Positions 5,722 through 30,629 of a stretch of 42,420 bases of DNA are shown piece after piece. The position numbers and the translations under genes are program-made. The stretch spans positions 1 through 42,420 of the forward strand of contig JAGVYS010000007.1 in NCBI GenBank assembly GCA_018303125.1. The letters are read 5' to 3'. The DNA comes from Candidatus Woesearchaeota archaeon. Lineage in GTDB: Archaea; Nanobdellota; Nanobdellia; Woesearchaeales; WJIZ01. Position 1 is the first letter of the stretch; each line of letters begins with the position of its first letter. The notes beneath the pieces were generated by a model. It was not told where the DNA came from and did not search any database. It saw only the letters and a list, made by a program, of their open reading frames with translations.

Positions 5722-6354
5722 TTATTTTTTGAGCAGCTTGAATGCGTGCGTCCACTCGTTTCGCAAAAATCCCGGGATGCACCACAACATGCACAATGGC
5801 TCTATAGCCCTGGCCGCTTCTGCCTTTCCCATGTCTTCAGCTTCAAAGCCGAACTTATCGAGAATCCTGCTTACTTCCTTTTTCGCCTTATCACTGTTGC
5901 CGCAGATGAACATTGTTGGTTTTGAGCCTGAAAAATCAGGATTTACCATAAAGGCGTTCCCTATGCTGTTGAATGCCTTCACAAAATTGGCATCCTGGAA
6001 AGTTTCCTGCAGCTGCTCCATAAGCGAATTGTCAAGCGAGGTGAAGAATTTCAGCACTCCATTTTCCGGCGGAGCATCTGCAATTGGATTTGTAGTATCA
6101 ATGATTGTTTTGCCATTGATATTTCCTGCTGCCTTGAGAGCATCCTTTGCTGCTGTGCCCTTAACCGCAAGCACAATTATTTCCCCAAATGAAGCTGCTT
6201 CTGAAAAGCTTCCTGTTTTTGCCTTGTTTTTTGACTTCCATTCTGAAAGCTTTTGCTGATTGCCTGTTCCCACCATCACTTCATAGCCGTGCTTCATGAA
6301 GCCTCCTGCCAATGCCTTCCCTACATCACCTGAACCTAAAATGCCTATTTTCAT
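5722..6354 (-). CDS. F420-dependent NADP oxidoreductase-like, NAD(P)-binding protein
   Basis: Rossmann-fold protein of 210 aa. It has the N-terminal dinucleotide motif GILGSGDVGKALAGG, a second conserved strand (IIVLAVKG), TIIDTTNPIADAP, and a C-terminal part (VKAFNSIGNAFM...PTMFICGN) typical of the F420-dependent NADP reductase (Fno-like) superfamily. Members move hydride between NADPH and F420 or reduce other substrates. F420 use cannot be inferred from this window, which has no F420 biosynthesis genes. The start is ATG 6354; the upstream AT-rich region shared with the divergent gene at 6446 holds the promoter. Probably first in an operon with VKOR. Confidence 0.75.
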   Translation of the reverse strand: MKIGILGSGDVGKALAGGFMKHGYEVMVGTGNQQKLSEWKSKNKAKTGSFSEAASFGEIIVLAVKGTAAKDALKAAGNINGKTIIDTTNPIADAPPENGVLKFFTSLDNSLMEQLQETFQDANFVKAFNSIGNAFMVNPDFSGSKPTMFICGNSDKAKKEVSRILDKFGFEAEDMGKAEAARAIEPLCMLWCIPGFLRNEWTHAFKLLKK

Positions 6355-6445
6355 TTTGTACCTCCTATTTTGCTAACCCATCCTCCAATAAAAATCTTAC
6401 TGCCCCATGCAAAATTTTTATAAATGAAGAACTCTCATTTTACTT

Positions 6446-7069
6446 ATGGTACGCATTGTGCCTGCAAAATGACTGAAGTATTTCCTTCTGCTGGAATTCC
6501 TGATTTTTGGCAGCCTGGGGGGTTTTTTAATCTATAATGGAGTTTACCTTAAATTTAACACAAGCAACCCTTTCCAGGATATATTCTTTGGCATTGTGCT
6601 GATTCTTATCCCTGCTGGAATAACTACATATGTATTTACTTTCGGCAGGGCGAGGAAGCTCGAAATAGATGAAAAAGGGATAAATTTCGGACGGCAATAT
6701 TATGGGCCTTTCAACAAAAAAGGGCCGTTTAGCATATGGAAAGGAATAAAGAGGCATAAAGAAGAGCTCTTTATTGCATGGGATGAGATTGATGCTGTCC
6801 ACATAGGTGAATGGAGCAGGTGGTGGCTTAGGTATTCATCCTTGGTAACTTTGTACATGGGAGACAAAAGAGCCACAACTATAGATGGTGCCTTGACTGA
6901 ATTAGGGATTCCTGTAAAAAGGATGAATTACTATTTCCTTACTATAGAAACAAAGAAAGGGGATTATTACTCCTATGACCTTCAGTTCAATTTAATGAGC
7001 GACGCAAAGAAGGCCATCATTGACATGGGGAGAAAGGAAATCATAAACGAGGAATCTTACAACATCTGA
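6446..7069 (+). CDS. Two-helix membrane protein with PH-like C-terminal domain; in-frame TGA near the start
   Basis: The ORF track begins at a GTG (6596), but the frame upstream encodes a convincing first membrane helix and loop (KYFLLLEFLIFGSLGGFLIY). The only sensible start is ATG 6446, which lies about 28 bp after a TATA box (TTTATAAA), as expected for a leaderless mRNA. Codon 9 of that reading is TGA (6470-6472). Residues after about 70 (RKLEIDEKGINFGRQYYG onward) look like a membrane-anchored PH-type beta domain. It may be a nonsense pseudogene, have a non-ATG start just after the TGA, or contain a sequence error. Converges with the GDPD gene 3 bp away. Confidence 0.55.
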
Positions 7070-8910: not shown

Positions 8911-11900
8911 ATGAAAAAAATGTTCGTTATATTGCTAGTCTTGTCGATAATGCTTTATGCCTGCGGGGAAAAGGATGCCGCAGAGGCCGATGATGGCCTT
9001 GGTGTGAAAACAGGAGCTGCTATGTTCGCACCTAAGGCAGCTGATAGCCAAATCAGCGGATTCCTGATAGAGAGCGGCAATAACAAGGTGAATTTGTATG
9101 AAGAGCTTAATAGCGTAGTCAACAGTGTCGGAGGAAAAGAGTTTGCTGCGCTGAAGGATGGCAAATTTATGGGGATATCTTCATCTGCAAGCTATAAGCA
9201 GAGCCTGTCTTTGCCATCTGCCTATGTTGCATGGGATGTTGACCCGGACTCATCGCCTGAGGACCCTGCCTATTACCTCGGATTCAACAATGGAGAGCAA
9301 GGATTGTACTACAAGCTTACATTTGGCGATAAATTTCCTTCATCTTCCTTGTCTGATGGCAGCACTCTTCATGATTTTATTAGTTTTGTTGACCAAGACA
9401 GCGATTTTGGAATCACTCTCTTAGGCAAGAAATATTACGTGACCTCGGCAAAAAAGAACAAGGATAACAGCATTTACATGAGGCTTGTGGAGAATAAGGC
9501 AAGCGATACACTCGAGGAATATGGTTTAGGGAGATACTTTGTGAATGGGAATGCTTATACTGTCCAGATTAACGCGATTGATGCAGAAGCAAAAAAGGCA
9601 GAAATATTTGATGGAGAAAGTGGGAAATTTATTACCCTAATGTCTGAAGGCGAGTCATATCCCCTTGAGAATGGAGTTTATATTGAAATAATTTCCATAA
9701 GTGAGTCCGAGGTGCCGGGAGTCGCTAAGACAGATAAGAAAGTAACATTTGTTTTAAGTGATAATATTGTAGAGTTGGACGGCTTTAACAAGCGCCTGAT
9801 AATAAATGACGAAACAATAGATGATGTATGGGTTAATATGCCTGCGACAACGGATGGTATAGGGAATGTGGCCTGGAATGGCCTGACAATCAACTGGGTT
9901 CCGACTGATGACTATTATATACCTGAAGACGGAAGGCTTTCAGAGCAGGTAAAGGACCATAATGATTATTCCCGTTTCCTCAAGTCACTTGGAGTAGATT
10001 ATTATTTTCAGGGATTGACTAACGAAGGAGATGATGTGATTAATATATTGTCTTCCGGCTCAAGCGGGTATGGTGACCCATATAGAATTAGTTTCACTAA
10101 CAAGAGAGGAACACTCTATGATTTTACGCTTGGCTATTATGATAGCTCAAGCCCCCTAAAAATCAGCTGGGGAGAGAGCAGGGAAGACCCATTAAAGTTC
10201 AGGGCAGGAGACAGGGTATGCGAGAATGACCTTTTTATAGTTGAATCACGGAGCAGCATTTCAAGGGTGCTAAGGCTTCTTGATGTTAATACTGATGCGA
10301 GGCTTGTCACAATCGGGGACATTGGGACAATGGAAAAATATGATTACAGCTACAGGAAATCTGGGAAGTACCAGATAGCAAAGGTAGCGATGGATGGCGA
10401 GAATTATGAGCTTGCTATAGATGAGGATGAGGAAAATTGCGTGCTATTGAGGAAGATTTCGCCGTATGCAAACAGTGCAAACCTCTGGACAAAGTATGGC
10501 GTTATATCCCTTACCGAACCTTCACTGGGTGGCAAATACGCTATAACCATAAACGAAACCAACATCAATTTATTTGCAACTGGCCAATACTCCTTTAGAT
10601 TTGAGCTTGACAGCGATGAAAGGTTCAAGCTTTTGCGATATAATCTATGGGATTATGGTTTGGAAACCAATGTAGGAATGGCAACTCTTGACAGTGATGA
10701 TAACGCTGAGGAAGGAGTCTCAAGCAAAGGCACCCATATAAAGCATTACAATATGGACAAGCAGGATGCATGGAAGATAAAGATGCCAAAGTATGATGTT
10801 GAGGCTAAAGTTTATTTGACACCATATCCGTCAAGCACAAAGGCAATTAACAAAGTGCCGTTAGGAATTAAAGATTTATCGGAATATCCTAGAGGGCTTG
10901 TATCTAGTGGCAGATTCAGAGGTTTATTTGTTGTTGGTGATAATGCGCCGGCAGATGATGTCATTTCTCTATCAGATGTAATTTTGGCTGTACAGTATAC
11001 GGGTGGCACAGAAGATACTTTAACAAAAATCAAAACTGAGTCTGTTCTGGCTTCTGGCATAAAGGATGTGTATATGTGGCAGAATTTGGTATTAATAGGC
11101 ACTCTTGATTCAAATCCCTTAATAAAGAAATTTATCTCAAGCGTCAGCAACTATGGGGAGATTCACCTGCTTGAAAATAGCCTCTATTCCGCTATTATCG
11201 TTACAGGAAAAACAAAGGAAGGAGTGAATAAGGCAGCAAGTGTGGTTGCCAATGCAAAGGAGCTGAGGGGCACATTCATGGCAATTGATGAGGGCGGAAG
11301 GATTAGCTATGGTTCAAGATCTTCTTTATCCGGTAGCGGGTCTTTGTCATGCACAGTTATTTCGGAGCTTTCTTCAACAGTAGCAAATTTACGCAATACT
11401 AATGAGGTCAAATCCGGCAACAGCAAGATTATCCTAAAAGAAGGCGTAAAGGCAATAACTGGTGACTATATTGTCGCGCCTAGTGCCAGAGGCGGATTTG
11501 TTTTACAAGTTGTAAGCATTGAAAACTACAACAATGAAAGAAAAGATTTCGTTGGTGACTTTGCAATATTTAAGGATGTTGCAACAGGGGAGGAATTGAT
11601 TTTATACCCAAATGAGGAACGCAAAGCTACATTATATCTTCACGGTGAGTGGTACTTTATTGAATATGGGACAGAATACACAGCGAAGCAAACAAATTAT
11701 GTAATTTTGAACGCCGCTCTAGAAAATTACAAAGGATATAATTTCGAGGGATGTGGCTTTGGCGAGGGTTCATCCGCTACTGCTTTGGATTGTAGCCTGA
11801 TAGCCGCGGATGTTGTATCGGATATAGCAGATGCCAAAATTCGACACTCGAAAAATAATGTAAGACTAAAAGAAGGTGATGAGGTAAACATATATGATAG

Positions 11901-12831
11901 TGTACTGTTGCCTACACCGAAAGGAGGCAAACTTCTTAATGTCTTGTTAATAGATTTCTTAGATGATGAAAATAGCATCTATGTAAAAGACGGCAATGGG
12001 GAAGAATATACTTTTCGGGTAGACAATGAAAATGAAGCATCAATTGGAGGCAAGAAGGGAGTTATTGGAAAAGGGACAGCCATATTTAATGGGATACAGT
12101 ATCAGTTCTCCTATTTTCATGACTTAGTTAATATAAAAAGATATGTGACCTTCACACCCTTGGCTGAAGAGTACAAAGGATACAACTTCGAGAGTTGCGG
12201 ATTTGATAAACTAGGCTATTGCGATTTGATATCCTATGAGATTAAGTCCCTAGTAAAGAAAGAAATGAAGGCAGGCAGAAACGTCATATTGAAATCGCTT
12301 GTTAGAGCAACTAAAAATGACTTGATACTATTGCCTACACCTAAAGGCGGTGCTATTCTGGATGTTGACTATTCTGGAAATAAATTGGTTATAGGGTTGA
12401 CTGATTACGAAGGTCGAAAGGTGTACGATATGACAGAGAAGTTAGTTAGACCATGGTTTTTTGATATGATTATTCATGGAGCTAGGTTTGCGTTTTCAAT
12501 TGCGGATGGAAGCTTTATAACAGTTATGTCTGGAGATTACCCGAACTATAGCTTTGAGGGATGCGAGTTCAAGACTGCGCCGACATCTACATCATTAGCA
12601 GCCGGTACTTTCACCCACTGCGACATTGGAGGACGATGGGGCTGGAGGGAAGGCACATCTTCCTGCCCTGTCGGGACAAATCGCGTTGTCGATTCGTGTC
12701 CTGCAGAATCAAGCCAGTATGGTACACAAGGCTGCTATTATACAGGAAGCAACCAGGGCGGAGCGAAAAACCCATGCTGGGACTTTGAGCATGACCAGAG
12801 TGATGAATGCTGCTTTTACATGTGCAGCTAA
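8911..12831 (+). CDS. Giant surface lipoprotein with S-layer-like module and repeated C-terminal domains
   Basis: The start was moved from the ORF-track 8851 to ATG 8911: a TATA box (TTTATATACC, ~8860) lies between the two, and GGAGG is placed 8 bp before 8911. The 1306-residue protein begins with a signal peptide and lipobox (SIMLYAC), so it should be lipid-anchored at the surface. Residues near 670-800 resemble archaeal S-layer proteins (GLFVVGDNAPADDVISLSDV, MWQNLVLIGTLDSN). Downstream, related units recur: GYNFEGCGF, GYNFESCGF, NYSFEGCEF, and three copies of a LPTPKGG-type segment (LLPTPKGG twice, VAPSARGG once). The last ~80 residues are Cys-rich and could be disulfide-bonded, perhaps via the VKOR protein. 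No enzymatic motif seen. Confidence 0.8.
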   Translation: MKKMFVILLVLSIMLYACGEKDAAEADDGLGVKTGAAMFAPKAADSQISGFLIESGNNKVNLYEELNSVVNSVGGKEFAALKDGKFMGISSSASYKQSLSLPSAYVAWDVDPDSSPEDPAYYLGFNNGEQGLYYKLTFGDKFPSSSLSDGSTLHDFISFVDQDSDFGITLLGKKYYVTSAKKNKDNSIYMRLVENKASDTLEEYGLGRYFVNGNAYTVQINAIDAEAKKAEIFDGESGKFITLMSEGESYPLENGVYIEIISISESEVPGVAKTDKKVTFVLSDNIVELDGFNKRLIINDETIDDVWVNMPATTDGIGNVAWNGLTINWVPTDDYYIPEDGRLSEQVKDHNDYSRFLKSLGVDYYFQGLTNEGDDVINILSSGSSGYGDPYRISFTNKRGTLYDFTLGYYDSSSPLKISWGESREDPLKFRAGDRVCENDLFIVESRSSISRVLRLLDVNTDARLVTIGDIGTMEKYDYSYRKSGKYQIAKVAMDGENYELAIDEDEENCVLLRKISPYANSANLWTKYGVISLTEPSLGGKYAITINETNINLFATGQYSFRFELDSDERFKLLRYNLWDYGLETNVGMATLDSDDNAEEGVSSKGTHIKHYNMDKQDAWKIKMPKYDVEAKVYLTPYPSSTKAINKVPLGIKDLSEYPRGLVSSGRFRGLFVVGDNAPADDVISLSDVILAVQYTGGTEDTLTKIKTESVLASGIKDVYMWQNLVLIGTLDSNPLIKKFISSVSNYGEIHLLENSLYSAIIVTGKTKEGVNKAASVVANAKELRGTFMAIDEGGRISYGSRSSLSGSGSLSCTVISELSSTVANLRNTNEVKSGNSKIILKEGVKAITGDYIVAPSARGGFVLQVVSIENYNNERKDFVGDFAIFKDVATGEELILYPNEERKATLYLHGEWYFIEYGTEYTAKQTNYVILNAALENYKGYNFEGCGFGEGSSATALDCSLIAADVVSDIADAKIRHSKNNVRLKEGDEVNIYDSVLLPTPKGGKLLNVLLIDFLDDENSIYVKDGNGEEYTFRVDNENEASIGGKKGVIGKGTAIFNGIQYQFSYFHDLVNIKRYVTFTPLAEEYKGYNFESCGFDKLGYCDLISYEIKSLVKKEMKAGRNVILKSLVRATKNDLILLPTPKGGAILDVDYSGNKLVIGLTDYEGRKVYDMTEKLVRPWFFDMIIHGARFAFSIADGSFITVMSGDYPNYSFEGCEFKTAPTSTSLAAGTFTHCDIGGRWGWREGTSSCPVGTNRVVDSCPAESSQYGTQGCYYTGSNQGGAKNPCWDFEHDQSDECCFYMCS

Positions 12832-22332: not shown

Positions 22333-24399
22333 ATGTGCGGAATACTTGGCATATTCAATGCAAGCGGAAATGTGAAGGAAGCGCTGCTATCAATGGCAGA
22401 AAGGGGAAGGGATGGTTGCGGAATCTGCGACAGCAGCAACTGTCATTACTCTCCTGACATAGCTGGCTTGCCAGCTATAACTACAAACTGCATGGCACAT
22501 CTCCTGCATTCTGTTGTTGGCTGTGTCAACCAGCCACTGAAGAAAAAAGGGATTTTTATAGCCAATTGCGAGATATACAACTGGAATATCCTTGACAAAA
22601 AGTATTCTTTCAATTCCAGGAATGATGCTGAGCTATTAATGGATTTGCTGGAGAAAAAAGGCATCTCTGAGGAAGTACTTGATGAGCTTGATGGAGTTTA
22701 TGCTGTAGCATATCTTGGTGAAGGAAAAGTGCATATAATGAGGGATATACTGGGAGTTAAGCCATTATGGTATTCCATAGAGGAGGGATTTTGCTTTGCA
22801 TCCGAAAGGAAGGCGCTTGTTAAGCTTGGACTGAAAAAAATAGAGGAGCTTAATCCGAGAATTATCATGTCATATGATACAAAATCAGGAGAAGCAATGC
22901 AGACAAGGAGACAGTTTCTTGCCAGTTCTAACTTAGATAGCAATTATGCTGCTGTCACAGAGAAGCTTCTTCTTGAGGCAGTAAGTAAGCGGATTCCTGA
23001 TGGAAAATTCGGCATACTTTTCTCAGGTGGCATAGACTCAACATTTATAGCTAAGATATGCAAGGATTCAGGAAGGGAATTCGTATGCTATGCAGCAGGA
23101 ATTAAAGGAGAGAGGGAATCTTTTGACATCATTCAGGCAAAGGATGCTGCCTCGAGGCTCGGCTTTAAGCTAAAGACAATTGAGATTTCAAAGGAAGATG
23201 TTGAGCAATATCTGGCAAAGATAGTTCCATTGATAGAGGACAGCAACGTGGTCAAGGTGGGAGTAGGCATTACAATGTTCGCAGCATGCGAGCTCGCAAG
23301 AAAGGACGGCATAAAAGTCATATTCTCTGGATTAGGCTCTGAGGAATTATTTGCAGGATACGAGAGGCATAAGAATGCTCTTGATGTGAATGTAGAATGC
23401 CTCTCCGGGCTGCTGAAAATTTATGAGAGGGACTTGTATAGAGATGATGTGATAACAATGCACAACAATCTTGAGCTCAGGCTTCCTTTCCTTGACAAGG
23501 CTCTTGCAAGGTATGCATTAGGAATACCTGCAGAAATGAAGATATTGACAGAGAGGAACAAGGCCATACTAAGAGATGTGGCAAAGAAAATCGGCATTCC
23601 AGTTGACATAGCTGAAAGGAAGAAAAAGGCAGCGCAGTACGGCTCAGGCTTTGACAGGGCAATAGGGAAACTGGCAAGAAATGAGAAGATGTCCAAATCA
23701 GCTTATCTTGAAAGGTTTTACAGAAAGCCAAATGTTAAGCTTGCTGCCTTATGGAGCACAGGAAAAGACAGCGCATATGCAGCATGGCTGATGAAGAAGC
23801 AAAATTATGAAATATCCTGCTTAATCTGCCTAAAGAGCGCAAACAAGGATTCCTATATGTTCCATACACCCAATGTCGGAATAGCAAATCTGCATGCAGA
23901 GTCAATGAAGGTGCCGCTGATAATGAAGGAGACAGCAGGCACAAAAGAAGAAGAGCTCGATGACTTAAGAGATGCCCTTGCCGAGGCAAAGGAAAGATAC
24001 GGCATACAGGGAGTTGTAAGCGGGGCAATATTCTCTAATTACCAAAGAGAGAGAATAGAAAGAGTATGTGACAGGCTCAGCTTAAAGATATTCTCTCCTT
24101 TATGGCACAAGGACCAGGAAGCTGTTCTGGGTGAAATTTCAAGCAATGGCTTTGAAGCAATAATAGTGTCAATTGCTGCTGAAGGCTTAACTAAAGAATG
24201 GCTGGGAAAGAGAATTGATTTTGATTTGATACGCAAGTTGAAATCACTCAAAGGAATAAACATAAGCGGCGAAGGCGGAGAGTATGATTCTTTAGTTATA
24301 AATTGCCCACTTTTCACAAAGCCGCTTAAGGTTCTTGGCTCAAAAATAGAAGAGGACACAAAAAATTCAGCAAGGCTGCATGTGGAATGCTTGCTATAG
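22333..24399 (+). CDS. Asparagine synthase-Dph6 (diphthine-ammonia ligase) fusion protein
   Basis: 688 aa. Residues 1-~190 are a class II glutamine amidotransferase with Cys2 (MCGILGIF), shorter than usual. Residues ~215-460 are the AsnB synthetase domain with PP-loop LFSGGIDSTFIAKI. From ~468 a second ATP-pyrophosphatase domain begins with ALWSTGKDSAYAAWLM and ends with the Dph6/DUF71 hallmark GEGGEYDSLVINCPLF. Dph6 amidates diphthine on EF2 using ammonia; AsnB makes asparagine with glutamine-derived ammonia. The fusion suggests the amidotransferase feeds ammonia to one or both ligases. A TATA-like ATTTTTAAG ~27 bp upstream supports the start. The reading frame is intact across the joint. 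Confidence 0.85.
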   Translation: MCGILGIFNASGNVKEALLSMAERGRDGCGICDSSNCHYSPDIAGLPAITTNCMAHLLHSVVGCVNQPLKKKGIFIANCEIYNWNILDKKYSFNSRNDAELLMDLLEKKGISEEVLDELDGVYAVAYLGEGKVHIMRDILGVKPLWYSIEEGFCFASERKALVKLGLKKIEELNPRIIMSYDTKSGEAMQTRRQFLASSNLDSNYAAVTEKLLLEAVSKRIPDGKFGILFSGGIDSTFIAKICKDSGREFVCYAAGIKGERESFDIIQAKDAASRLGFKLKTIEISKEDVEQYLAKIVPLIEDSNVVKVGVGITMFAACELARKDGIKVIFSGLGSEELFAGYERHKNALDVNVECLSGLLKIYERDLYRDDVITMHNNLELRLPFLDKALARYALGIPAEMKILTERNKAILRDVAKKIGIPVDIAERKKKAAQYGSGFDRAIGKLARNEKMSKSAYLERFYRKPNVKLAALWSTGKDSAYAAWLMKKQNYEISCLICLKSANKDSYMFHTPNVGIANLHAESMKVPLIMKETAGTKEEELDDLRDALAEAKERYGIQGVVSGAIFSNYQRERIERVCDRLSLKIFSPLWHKDQEAVLGEISSNGFEAIIVSIAAEGLTKEWLGKRIDFDLIRKLKSLKGINISGEGGEYDSLVINCPLFTKPLKVLGSKIEEDTKNSARLHVECLL

Positions 24400-26474: not shown

Positions 26475-27209
26475 TTATGGACTTGCAGCCTGCCACATAA
26501 GCTCAAAGTATTTTCTGTAGCCATCGGCAATTGACTTGTTCTTAATCACAACCGCAATCGGCTCTTTTTCAGAAAGTAGCAGGATGGCTGAATTGTCTCC
26601 ATAAATCCTTAGGGCAGCCATGGAAGAATAGTGCTCAGGTATATACCTTATTTTGCTGAGTGGGTGCTTCTTTAAACCCTTTCTTGCCTTCTCGCTGTAT
26701 ATTAGCCTGTTCTTTATTTTTGCCTTAGCCCTTTTACTGGCGAAATGTCTGATATAATGCTTAAACATATTCTCAAGCTGATAGCCTGGGCTGACACCAA
26801 TATAACCCTTTCCTGTTCTCAGGATATGGTCAAATACTGTTTTTAAGCCTTCAACTCCCCTGAAAAACCTCACGTCATGTCCTTCTTCAAATTTTGTCCT
26901 TAAATCCAGCTCTGGCATGATTTTATTAAGCCTCTCCTTTAGGTTATCCAGCCTGAACTTTCTTTCTTCCACCAGCCCAATCAGCCTTTTTGGGCTTGCA
27001 GGGCTGAAGACTTTCTTGTTGTTAACTATAACAGAGCTGACGAGCCCTTTTTCAACCAATCTTCCAATGGAATCATATATATTTCTCCTGTGCATTCCAG
27101 TTTTCTCCATAATCTGCCCTATCCCGGCAGTTCCAAGGCCCAATAGTTCCATGTAAATTTTAGACTCGCTATTGGTCAATCCAAGTTCAGACAAAATTTT
27201 ATCATGCAT
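26475..27209 (-). CDS. TrmB-type sugar-responsive transcriptional regulator
   Basis: 244 aa from ATG 27209; the track uses TTG 27230. The N-terminal winged helix (LGLTNSESKIYMELLGLG, then TGMHRRNIYDSIGRLVEKGL) is a good match to TrmB, followed by a coiled-coil segment (LVEERKFRLDNLKERLNKI) and a C-terminal effector region (~100-244). TrmB proteins regulate sugar transport and metabolism, commonly of trehalose or maltose. The divergent gene encodes a sugar glycosyltransferase-phosphatase, and a palindrome covers the TATA box between them, so the pair is probably regulator and target. Confidence 0.8.
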   Translation of the reverse strand: MHDKILSELGLTNSESKIYMELLGLGTAGIGQIMEKTGMHRRNIYDSIGRLVEKGLVSSVIVNNKKVFSPASPKRLIGLVEERKFRLDNLKERLNKIMPELDLRTKFEEGHDVRFFRGVEGLKTVFDHILRTGKGYIGVSPGYQLENMFKHYIRHFASKRAKAKIKNRLIYSEKARKGLKKHPLSKIRYIPEHYSSMAALRIYGDNSAILLLSEKEPIAVVIKNKSIADGYRKYFELMWQAASP

Positions 27210-27242
27210 ACATATTGGACAGCTTGCCAATTCTTAAATTTT

Positions 27243-27263
27243 GTGGTAACCTTATATCACCAC
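27243..27263. promoter_or_regulatory. GTGGT-N11-ACCAC palindrome between TrmB and the glycosyltransferase gene
   Basis: A 5-bp arm inverted repeat encloses the minus-strand TATA box (GATATAAG) of the TrmB-type gene. It lies just upstream of a plus-strand TATA candidate (CTTTAAATAA, ~27269). One bound dimer could affect both divergent transcripts. The ~120-nt region that follows contains CAGTATA twice. Confidence 0.5.
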
Positions 27264-27418
27264 ACTGCTTTAAATAATCTGGAGCTGCAGTATAGGTATA
27301 ACCGAAAAATTTCAGTATAGCACTGCATGAGTTGGGGGAATGGAAGCAACAGCCTGAATGAAAATAGGCTTTCAGCATGTAGAATACAGAGTAAAATTCA
27401 ATTGCCTTTAAACTAACG

Positions 27419-29359
27419 ATGAAAATATTTTTCGCAAGCCAGTCATTTTACCCACATATAGGGGGAGTATCAACATACCTTCTCAATCTAGCCATAGGGC
27501 TGAGCCAGGGAGGCAATGAAATAGTTGAAGTCCACCTGAGGATTCCAAATGAACGGACAGAAGACACTGTAAAAGGCATCAAGGTTTATCGCATACCTCG
27601 GACACCCATTAGGGAAGGATTGCTTAAGGGATACAGCAATTTTAAGGAAAGAATCTATAAGGAGTGTCATGGTGAAGGGGATTTCTTCAAGAAAGAGCCT
27701 CTTGTGACCTATGGTTACGATGAATATCTCCAGATAAACTCATTACTCGGCAAACAGATAGAAGACCTTCTGGAAAAAAACCCAACCGAGATAGTACACA
27801 TACACGATTTTCAGCTCCTCATGGTTTACAAGAATGTGCCAAGGGGGGTGCCAGTTATACTGACATGGCACATACCTTTCATGGATTCAATTTCAAACCA
27901 CTTGAAGCGATTCCTGATTAGGCACATGAAAGGATTTGACAAGGTGATTTTTTCATGTGATGAATACGCGAAATCGGCAGTCAAATGCGGATTACCTCCC
28001 AACAGGGTGGAAGTGATACATCCCATCGCAAACACCACCATGTTTAGGCCAAAGAAACACGATAATGAGCTGAAACGCCTGTGCAATATCCCTAACGACT
28101 GCAAGACTATATTGTGCGTACAGCGCATCGACGCAAAGAGCGGTCATGTCCAGTTAATTAAATCCATGCAAAGCGTACTTGCCGGGTTTCCAAAGGCAAG
28201 GTTGGTATTTATAGGCGGAAAATCCATGACAAGCAAGATATCAAAGGAGAGGGAAAACATCGAGAAGGAGGTCCATGCCCTTGTAAAATCCCTCGGCCTG
28301 CAGAACAGTGTATTTTTTGCAGGGAGCATTGAATACGAAAAGCTTCCCGCATATTACAATTCTGCGGACATTGTTGCCCTTACATCGAAGAATGAAGGTT
28401 TCGGCCTCGCTGTCACAGAAGGGATGGCCTGCGGAAAGCCGATAGTAGCCACAAATGTTCCAGGCATAGTTTTGCAGGTGCAGGATGCCGTAAATGGATT
28501 TATCGTAGAGCCGGGAGATTATGAAAAAACGGCTGAAAAGATACTGGAGCTTCTGAAAAATGATAAACTCAGAGAGGCAATGGGAAAAGAAAGCCTATGC
28601 ATAGCCAAATCAAGGTTTTCAATGTCAAAAGGCATAGATATGCATCAAAGGCTCTACAGAAAACTGATTAAGTCAAAAACTGACTGGTGCCTTAAGACTG
28701 TAAAATTGGAGCATGTTTCTGCCATTATCACTGACTTCGACAGGACTATTACTGACAGACCGGGTGTCATAAATAAAACTGTCTTGGATGGGCTCGATTC
28801 TCTGAATAAGCCATTAATCTTGGTTACCGGAAGGGTGATGGATTATGCAAAAGAGCTTTTAAGGAAATATCCTGTATGGGACTGCATAATTGCAGAGAAT
28901 GGTAGCTATGCATATTTTCCAGGCAAGGACCTTTGCTGGAGCTTTACTTCCGGGCCGTTCGAGGAAGCAAAAATGATTCTCAGGAGAGAGAATTTTCCAG
29001 CAGATTTCGGAAATGGTGTAATCAGCATTTCCAAGTCGATTGAAGCTAAAGCAAAAGAGGTTTTAGGCAGCGTGGCAAGGCATATAGGATTCATAACCAA
29101 CGCGGATGAAGTGATGCTGCTCCCGGAAGGAATAAATAAAGGCATTAGCGTCAAGCTTGCTTTGGATTACATGGGAATAGACCTAAAGAACACAGTAATA
29201 ATTGCTGATGGGGAGAATGACATAAGCCTCTTTGCAAATCCTGGATTTAAAGTAGCAGTGGCAAACGCAGACGAGAAGCTCAGGCTTCTGGCAGATGAGG
29301 TCACAGACAAACCCTCTACAGAGGGTGTGCTTGAGGTAATAGAAAAATTAAGAATGTAA
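27419..29359 (+). CDS. GT4 glycosyltransferase fused to a HAD phosphatase (sucrose-phosphate synthase/phosphatase-like)
   Basis: 646 aa. Residues 1-~415 form a GT-B glycosyltransferase family 4: FYPHIGGVSTYLLNLA, acceptor region IVHIHDFQ, and the sugar-nucleotide motif NEGFGLAVTEGMACGKPIV (E-x7-E). From ~430 a HAD domain of the Cof/SPP type begins: DFDRTIT (motif I), LVTGR (motif II), Lys in EGINKGISV, and IADGENDISLF (motif IV). The domain order is that of sucrose-phosphate synthase-phosphatase: make a phosphorylated glycoside, then remove the phosphate. The product could be sucrose, trehalose or another compatible solute. MscS follows 10 bp downstream and a TrmB regulator lies upstream, which suggests osmotic adaptation. 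Confidence 0.85.
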   Translation: MKIFFASQSFYPHIGGVSTYLLNLAIGLSQGGNEIVEVHLRIPNERTEDTVKGIKVYRIPRTPIREGLLKGYSNFKERIYKECHGEGDFFKKEPLVTYGYDEYLQINSLLGKQIEDLLEKNPTEIVHIHDFQLLMVYKNVPRGVPVILTWHIPFMDSISNHLKRFLIRHMKGFDKVIFSCDEYAKSAVKCGLPPNRVEVIHPIANTTMFRPKKHDNELKRLCNIPNDCKTILCVQRIDAKSGHVQLIKSMQSVLAGFPKARLVFIGGKSMTSKISKERENIEKEVHALVKSLGLQNSVFFAGSIEYEKLPAYYNSADIVALTSKNEGFGLAVTEGMACGKPIVATNVPGIVLQVQDAVNGFIVEPGDYEKTAEKILELLKNDKLREAMGKESLCIAKSRFSMSKGIDMHQRLYRKLIKSKTDWCLKTVKLEHVSAIITDFDRTITDRPGVINKTVLDGLDSLNKPLILVTGRVMDYAKELLRKYPVWDCIIAENGSYAYFPGKDLCWSFTSGPFEEAKMILRRENFPADFGNGVISISKSIEAKAKEVLGSVARHIGFITNADEVMLLPEGINKGISVKLALDYMGIDLKNTVIIADGENDISLFANPGFKVAVANADEKLRLLADEVTDKPSTEGVLEVIEKLRM

Positions 29360-29369
29360 TCATTGCAAA

Positions 29370-30404
29370 ATGGCATTAAACAACATGATATACACAGAAA
29401 TTATCATTGCAACTGCAGGAATTATAGGCTCATTCATCGCAGCCAAATTGCTCTGCTTTGTGTTGGATAGATACATAAAATCATTTACAAAGAAGACGAA
29501 GACAGATATTGATGACCGGATTCTTGCGGCACTGGAAAGGCCGTTCATAATTCTCGTTGTAATTATAGGGCTGTATTTTTCACTATTGCAGGTTGATTAT
29601 GTCCGCCAATATGTAGGGATAATGAATGATGCTTTCTTCGTACTCAGTGTTTTGTGGACTGTTTTTGTGCTATACAGGCTTACAAAAGTTCTCATGGAAA
29701 AATGGGTTTCCACTAATCCGTCTTTTCAGAACATGCCTAGGCTTGTCGTTAAGATAGCTGATGTCCTAATCTATTTCATAGGCCTGATAATTATCCTCAA
29801 GCACTTCAACATAGAGATAACTCCCTTCGTTGCGACATTAGGGATAGGTGGCATTGCCATAGGCTTTGCTCTTCAGGACACACTCTCAAATTTTTTCTCC
29901 GGCTTGTACATAATCTCCGACAGGCCGATAAACATCGGTGATTTCATTGAGCTAGAGGACGACATAAGTGGCTATGTCGAGGACATAGGCTGGCGCACTA
30001 CCAGGATAAGAACACTGCCAAATACGATGGTAATAGTCCCAAATTCAAAAATTGCCTCATCTATAATAAAAAATGATACTCTACCTGTCCCGGAAATGAG
30101 CATAGTAATCCAATGCGGAGTATCCTATGCCTCAGACCTTGACAAGGTTGAAGAAGTCACGATAGACACAGCCACGGAAATACAGAAAAACACTGAAGGC
30201 GCAGTCAAGGATTTTAAGCCCTTCATAAGATACCATACCTTCGGAGATTCAAACATAAATTTTTCTATTATACTGAGGGTTAAGACATTTGTTGACAAGT
30301 ATCTGGTGACGCATGAGTTCATCAAAGCCCTGAAAAAGGCATATGATAAAGAAGGCATAGAGATATCGTGGCCTGTCAGGAAAATTTACTACGGCAAGAA
30401 ATAA
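29370..30404 (+). CDS. mscS: MscS-family mechanosensitive ion channel
   Basis: 344 aa with about four N-terminal membrane helices. The pore helix and beta domain match MscS: FVATLGIGGIAIGFALQDTL, SNFFSGLYIISDRPINIGDF, then IRTLPNTMVIVPNSKI. The cytoplasmic alpha/beta cage (about 240-344) follows. It opens under membrane tension to release solutes during hypo-osmotic shock. It starts 10 bp after the glycosyltransferase-phosphatase gene and has no promoter of its own, so it is probably cotranscribed. This gives a solute-making and a solute-releasing activity in one transcript. Confidence 0.93.
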   Translation: MALNNMIYTEIIIATAGIIGSFIAAKLLCFVLDRYIKSFTKKTKTDIDDRILAALERPFIILVVIIGLYFSLLQVDYVRQYVGIMNDAFFVLSVLWTVFVLYRLTKVLMEKWVSTNPSFQNMPRLVVKIADVLIYFIGLIIILKHFNIEITPFVATLGIGGIAIGFALQDTLSNFFSGLYIISDRPINIGDFIELEDDISGYVEDIGWRTTRIRTLPNTMVIVPNSKIASSIIKNDTLPVPEMSIVIQCGVSYASDLDKVEEVTIDTATEIQKNTEGAVKDFKPFIRYHTFGDSNINFSIILRVKTFVDKYLVTHEFIKALKKAYDKEGIEISWPVRKIYYGKK

Positions 30405-30508: not shown

Positions 30509-30629
30509 GGCGGTGTAGCTCAGCCTGGTTAGAGCGCTAGACTCATAAGCGTATGAGTTATGAGACATTATGTCGATGATGCTAAGCAGGGTTATCTAGA
30601 GGTCGTGGGTTCAAATCTCGCCACCGCCA
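30509..30629 (+). tRNA. tRNA-Met (CAU), elongator, with intron at 37/38
   Basis: Acceptor GGCGGTG pairs with CACCGCC (30622-30628), discriminator A. D-arm GCTCAGCC...GAGC; anticodon stem CTAGA/TCTAG; loop C-U-CAU-A-A; T-arm GTGGG-TTCAAAT-CTCGC. The anticodon is at 30544-30546. A 46-nt intron (30548-30593) sits between positions 37 and 38, the canonical archaeal site. Exon features resemble archaeal elongator tRNA-Met. tRNA-Ile2 with a CAU anticodon to be modified is the alternative. CCA is not encoded. Confidence 0.88.

Follow-up and report, generated by a model that had tools for sequence, protein, structure and literature searches.

Does the stretch of DNA analysed here (the window: 42,420 nucleotides of contig JAGVYS010000007.1 from a Candidatus Woesearchaeota archaeon) encode a unit that both makes a compatible solute and releases it? 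An earlier note on this DNA had proposed an osmotic circuit of three genes: a TrmB-type regulator, a divergent gene fusing a GT4 glycosyltransferase to a HAD phosphatase, and an MscS-type mechanosensitive channel. All three open reading frames (ORFs) were exact in their coordinates: the regulator (251 amino acids) at 26475-27230 on the minus strand and, on the plus strand, the fusion (646 amino acids) at 27419-29359 and the channel (344 amino acids, here named type A) at 29370-30404, with the 10 bp between the latter two (29360-29369) confirmed. From these sequences and those of relatives, we consider it likely that the fusion and the channel form a pair that makes trehalose and releases it under tension.

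The source genome is archaeal (1.35 Mb in 54 contigs), and the named relatives that carry the fusion gene are Candidatus Woesearchaeota. Our comparisons covered 287 genomes of the order Woesearchaeales, a class-wide sample of 378 genomes, and 25 loci with a nearly full-length fusion gene (the window counted), around each of which ORFs were called.

The fusion enzyme and its probable product

The fusion begins with a GT-B glycosyltransferase domain (residues 1-425; 27419-28693), composed of an acceptor half (1-225) that resembles OtsA and TreT and a donor half of GT4 type, and ends with a HAD-IIB phosphatase domain (residues 435-646; 28721-29356) of the sucrose-phosphate phosphatase (SPP)/archaeal phosphoglycolate phosphatase type; we propose that it acts as a trehalose-6-phosphate synthase/phosphatase (TPSP). 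Its Pfam matches are Glycos_transf_1 (PF00534; 1.3e-41, 142 bits) and Hydrolase_3 (HAD; 3.7e-21), and it passes the HAD-IIB model TIGR01484 (44.0 against a cut-off of 41.8). The alignment of its 25 homologues spans almost the entire protein, at 45-71% identity to that of the window, and in it the GT4 residues R236, K240 and E326-x7-E334 are invariant, as are the HAD-IIB motifs (DxD, T, K and GDxxND: D439, D441, T470, K574, D597, N600 and D601). Since the catalytic residues of both domains are invariant, we expect both activities, glycosyl transfer and dephosphorylation, to be retained. With membership set at E ≤ 1e-60, the family occurs in 28 of the 287 order genomes; the class-wide sample gave 11 hits, all inside the same order.

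Several observations point to trehalose as the most likely product. A profile of the acceptor half, compared with 177,635 PDB sequences, matched 11 of them at E ≤ 10, every one a trehalose enzyme. They comprise OtsA from several species (best values of 4e-6 to 4e-5), TreT (0.06) and an entry named as a trehalose-6-phosphate phosphatase. In contrast, a control profile of the N-terminal halves of other GT4 proteins from the same order matched BshA, PimB, GlgA and others in PDB, but no trehalose enzyme. The gene neighbours are of the same kind. A TreT-like gene lies within 4.3 kb of the fusion in 14 of the 25 loci and a GH15 gene lies near it in six; one or the other is found in 19 loci, and at least one of TreT, GH15 and MscS in 22. 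The profile of the TreT-like neighbours matches solved TreT structures at 1e-150, and the GH15 neighbour is closest to the archaeal trehalase TreH1 (3.5e-118, below the NCBI cut-off). In locus L065, the fusion, GH15, TreT and MscS genes stand in a row on one strand, with a convergent gene for a TrmB-type helix-turn-helix (HTH) protein at the end.

The association extends to whole genomes, with p-values that treat genomes as independent and thereby overstate significance: across the order, TreT was found in 13 of 28 genomes with the fusion compared to 19 of 259 without it (p = 4e-7), GH15 in 8 of 28 compared to 8 of 259 (p = 2e-5), and either one in 20 of 28 compared to 26 of 259 (p = 3e-12). 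Among fusion genomes, TreT and GH15 tend to be mutually exclusive (p = 0.03). All 25 fusion members match the Pfam TreT N-terminal model at E < 0.001, and in a quick maximum-likelihood tree the fusion joins TreT, itself on a long branch, against other GT4 proteins (SH-like approximate likelihood ratio test, 98). We also considered a canonical OtsA elsewhere in the genome, and rejected it after a GT20 search that found OtsA in 1 of the 287 order genomes. Thus, the earlier claim that the product is a soluble compatible solute and not a glycolipid is upheld as very probable, and specifically for trehalose, by neighbours, co-occurrence and acceptor-half matches. We note separately that the TreT gene of genome G247 (L056:3368-4553) is split over two overlapping ORFs, either as a pseudogene or through a sequencing frameshift.

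Some results weigh against this reading. None of the 25 fusion members matches the OtsB family; all 25 match an SPP-type HAD (Hydrolase_3, S6PP and SPP-subfamily models), and the substrate of the phosphatase therefore rests on context. By whole-model bits, the fusion scores higher with MshA (111) and BshA (100) than with TreT (70.5, against a curated cut-off of 775) or OtsA (47), and no trehalose model scores as high as the donor half or the models for GT4 proteins in general. The known TPSP of Thermoproteus tenax needs an activating GT4 partner (PMC3634074), whereas searches of the window's own genome found no TreT-grade gene and no GH15, nor was a partner GT4 recognised; the trehalose evidence therefore comes by homology to relatives. 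Two of the four named relatives carrying the fusion gene are of groundwater origin, which bears on the salinity of the habitat. Moreover, we do not claim membership in the TPSP family for the fusion, because both defining domains, GT20 and OtsB, failed the test: the GT20 model PF00982 covers just residues 224-388 (41.4 bits), not the whole N-terminal half. With Pfam TreT_GT1, the window protein falls just under the gathering score (25.5 against 27). Nevertheless, the fusion likely works like a TPSP.

Two other products have to be weighed against trehalose. If TreT and GH15 merely mark a general sugar region, the fusion might make another soluble glycoside by way of a phosphorylated intermediate (sucrose, glucosylglycerate, mannosylglycerate or similar). 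The HAD domain of SPP type would fit, as would the best whole-protein phmmer match in PDB, cyanobacterial Tll1590 (6kih), which we take to be a sucrose-phosphate synthase (SPS); the glycosyltransferase models for SPS match all fusion members, TIGR02472 weakly, and no SPS appears among the PDB matches of the acceptor half. However, the acceptor half finds trehalose enzymes alone where the control GT4 profile does not, and the neighbours are specifically trehalose-type enzymes, which would leave sucrose untouched. We consider this alternative unlikely. The high scores of general GT4 models such as MshA could instead indicate an MshA/PimA-like enzyme for glycolipids or cell-surface glycans, outside osmotic balance, but all of these models stay below their cut-offs, the transferase is fused to a phosphatase, trehalose genes are neighbours in 19 of 25 loci and no glycan cluster surrounds the window gene. 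We rejected a glycolipid enzyme proposed on MshA/BshA resemblance, given scores below the model cut-offs, and regard such a role as very improbable.

Co-inheritance of the fusion and the channel

The channel is a full-length MscS protein: the Pfam domains PF21088, PF00924 and PF21082 (TM2/3, beta and C-terminal) are all above cut-off (MS_channel_2nd, 7.3e-22), and it matches solved YnaI/MscS structures. A full promoter does not fit outside coding sequence in the 10-bp junction with the fusion. The linkage of the two genes, as first noted, is borne out by relatives. The DNA similarity between the window and loci L056 and L058, which belong to another family, covers exactly the fusion and MscS (27416-30391, approximately 70% identity), with none outside this block. 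Both regions also hold a gene that by eye looks PurM-like; its protein identity is 57-58%, compared to 69-71% in the fusion and 76-79% in MscS. In the tree, the window fusion nests within a clade of another family (f10), apart from G006, a member of its own family. On these few markers, the simplest reading is that the pair moved horizontally; among plasmids, we found no close relative.

The slot after the fusion can hold a different channel. Loci L057 and L058 have 91% DNA identity up to the fusion stop codon, beyond which L057 carries an MscS of type C and L058 one of type A, and these types are approximately 27% identical. Because the L057 contig breaks off within its channel gene, an assembly error there is possible, but L010 likewise has type C in this slot. 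Since unrelated MscS channels interchange in one slot, we take the exchange as evidence for selection on the valve as a component of the unit, and the fusion and MscS as a conserved, co-inherited pair, as the sequence comparisons support.

The adjacency could also be a neutral accident of recent horizontal transfer. The pair does look transferred, and most other fusion loci lack MscS: the channel lies beside the fusion in just 7 of 25 loci (the truncated gene of L057 counted), five of them from one clade, which counts against a general pairing. On the other hand, two unrelated MscS subfamilies occupy the same slot in near-identical relatives, and the distant loci L065 and L070 also have MscS nearby, where chance alone would give approximately 0.3 such cases over the 20 loci that lie outside the clade (our own estimate, from 3 MscS per genome). 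An accident of transfer thus seems improbable, and a selected pair remains our preferred reading. As a separate observation, the first MscS in L056 and L058 has a second one behind it in tandem (5927-6772 and 11123-11959, respectively), which belongs to a third subfamily; this second gene is 48-51% similar to another MscS of the window's genome (L091).

The divergent regulator and its palindrome

Is the regulator the third part of this unit? Its HTH (residues 13-80) is assigned to TrmB by Pfam (2.7e-12; 46.8 bits against a cut-off of 25.6), and the protein starts at a TTG or, alternatively, at an ATG at 27209. The description of the regulator as "sugar-type" did not hold: the match is confined to the HTH, a search for the TrmB sugar-binding domain gave nothing up to E = 5, and the TrmB/TrmBL1 equivalog models reach 29-39 bits against cut-offs of 600-650. 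Nor is the gene a fixed neighbour. An HxlR-type gene holds the divergent position in L010, L056, L058 and L080, the g120 relatives have HxlR and no TrmB, and the window's genome has 13 TrmB-HTH matches above cut-off. Thus, of the three-gene order, the relatives that carry the fusion-MscS pair lack the regulator. We rejected the idea that TrmB is a conserved third gene of the unit, and its part in the circuit is not supported.

The palindrome TGTGGT-N11-ACCACA (27242-27264) does span the probable TATA box of the regulator, as had been claimed, and its exact word is uncommon, with 0.03 occurrences expected in the window when 1 mismatch is allowed; however, it goes with the regulator family and not with the fusion. 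As a bare repeat it is not above chance, given that 66% of intergenic shuffles contain an inverted repeat with 6-bp arms. Of 31 regions upstream of TrmB paralogues, 8 contain a TGT-type palindrome, compared to 4 of 281 other upstream regions, each count including the window's own; five of those before TrmB genes lie at -53 to -55, and three besides that of the window have TGTGGT/ACCACA. Because palindromes like it also precede other TrmB paralogues, this one looks like a candidate autoregulatory operator, and we discarded it as a sign that the fusion is under its control. The DNA upstream of the fusion shows no conservation between the window and its relatives, and therefore no shared operator.

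We considered in this light whether TrmB senses sugar and controls the fusion and MscS through the palindrome. The divergent arrangement, with the palindrome between the genes, would suit such a circuit, as would the TrmB-HTH gene of L065, which is 36% identical and stands after MscS at the far end of the fusion-GH15-TreT-MscS cluster. Against this stand the HxlR replacement, the missing sugar-binding domain, the similar palindromes before TrmB paralogues elsewhere, and the absence of the known TrmB operator, TATCAC-N5-GTGATA, from the intergenic region. We find the circuit unlikely; given the L065 gene, TrmB may still have a regulatory role.

Palindromes of the forms TGTGGTG..ACCACA or TGTCCT..AGGACA also lie approximately 55 bp before TrmB-HTH genes in L105 (1436-1458), L098, L101, L088 and L087, and may represent an operator code for the large set of TrmB-HTH paralogues in the order. 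In the window's own genome, contig C15 (L091:11-33) carries the exact TGTGGT-N11-ACCACA again, with longer arms, upstream of a pyruvate kinase-like ORF, possibly as a second regulatory target or a stem-loop.

Proposed mechanism and relation to known systems

We propose that the N-terminal glycosyltransferase would transfer glucose from a nucleotide sugar to glucose-6-phosphate, and that the C-terminal HAD domain would then remove phosphate from trehalose-6-phosphate to give free trehalose, all on one polypeptide, the phosphatase step rendering synthesis irreversible. Trehalose would build up as a compatible solute, and MscS, probably made from the same transcript, would open under tension at hypo-osmotic shock to let solutes out. 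TreT is reversible in some archaea. Relatives pair the same synthase with TreT or a GH15 trehalase-like enzyme, instead of or besides MscS; in the window's genome, without either enzyme, the channel would be the only recognised exit. The palindrome is most likely the site at which the TrmB-HTH protein represses its own promoter, and any effect on the divergent fusion promoter, while possible, would be incidental to the unit. At a little short of an even chance, we hold the broader view that the fusion is an independently evolved Woesearchaeales trehalose-6-phosphate synthase/phosphatase that replaces OtsA/OtsB, and that its partner slot holds alternative trehalose exits (TreT, trehalase or an exchangeable MscS).

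The closest precedent lies in T. tenax, where one operon (msc-gt-tpsp) encodes a mechanosensitive channel, a protein of GT4 type and a TPSP in which a GT20 synthase is fused to the phosphatase. In the model put forward for it, trehalose is made under stress and leaves by way of the channel (Zaparty et al. 2013, PMC3634074); the operon is stated to be unique to Thermoproteus and Pyrobaculum (PMC3634074). Both systems combine a fused glycosyltransferase-HAD phosphatase with an MscS-like channel under the same synthesis/release model. However, that enzyme has GT20 and trehalose-6-phosphate phosphatase domains, whereas the window's has a GT4-like transferase and an SPP/phosphoglycolate phosphatase-type HAD; that channel is 197 amino acids and upstream, whereas the window's is full-length and downstream, in a genome without a TreT-like glycosyltransferase. 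Thus, the novelty suggested for the three-part combination does not extend to the synthesis/release concept, which was published for T. tenax (PMC3634074), but, within the scope of our searches, novelty does remain for the enzyme, its lineage and the exchange of channels; a literature search on Woesearchaeota and trehalose found nothing specific. The fusion enzyme is apparently a separate, independent design.

The fusion also bears comparison with other known enzymes. TreT (PDB 2x6q, 6zj4) is also a GT4 protein, whose N-terminal model matches the fusion family and which the quick tree groups with it, but TreT takes free glucose and has no phosphatase domain. Among solved structures, the acceptor half is most like OtsA (GT20), and a HAD-IIB phosphatase follows as in OtsA/OtsB, but the donor half is GT4 and the HAD is not of OtsB type. 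When the phosphate site was compared by eye with OtsA, residue by residue, no clear correspondence emerged. SPS-SPP fusions, which make sucrose, share the GT4 plus HAD-IIB architecture, whereas the acceptor half and gene neighbours here indicate trehalose. Some ectoine gene clusters are described as containing mscS (PMC6915088, citing Widderich 2016 on Nitrosopumilus); as far as that account goes, the likeness lies in compatible-solute genes with MscS, and the solute and enzymes are unrelated. The locus thus points to a way in which small archaea that lack OtsA could produce trehalose, and would be a second, apparently independent case in which solute synthesis is coupled to a pressure valve in one operon. 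If the enzyme does make trehalose-6-phosphate, it would link the GT4 and GT20 trehalose enzymes.

Two further features of the window deserve mention. A 688-amino-acid ORF at 22333-24399 (plus strand) joins a glutamine amidotransferase/asparagine-synthetase-like half to a diphthamide synthase half (PF01902, 1.1e-62), and is possibly an ammonia-supplying diphthine-amide ligase fusion. Directly after MscS, an Rfam tRNA match of 121 bp (30509-30629, plus strand) exceeds normal tRNA length and was missed by ARAGORN; it is probably an intron-containing tRNA.

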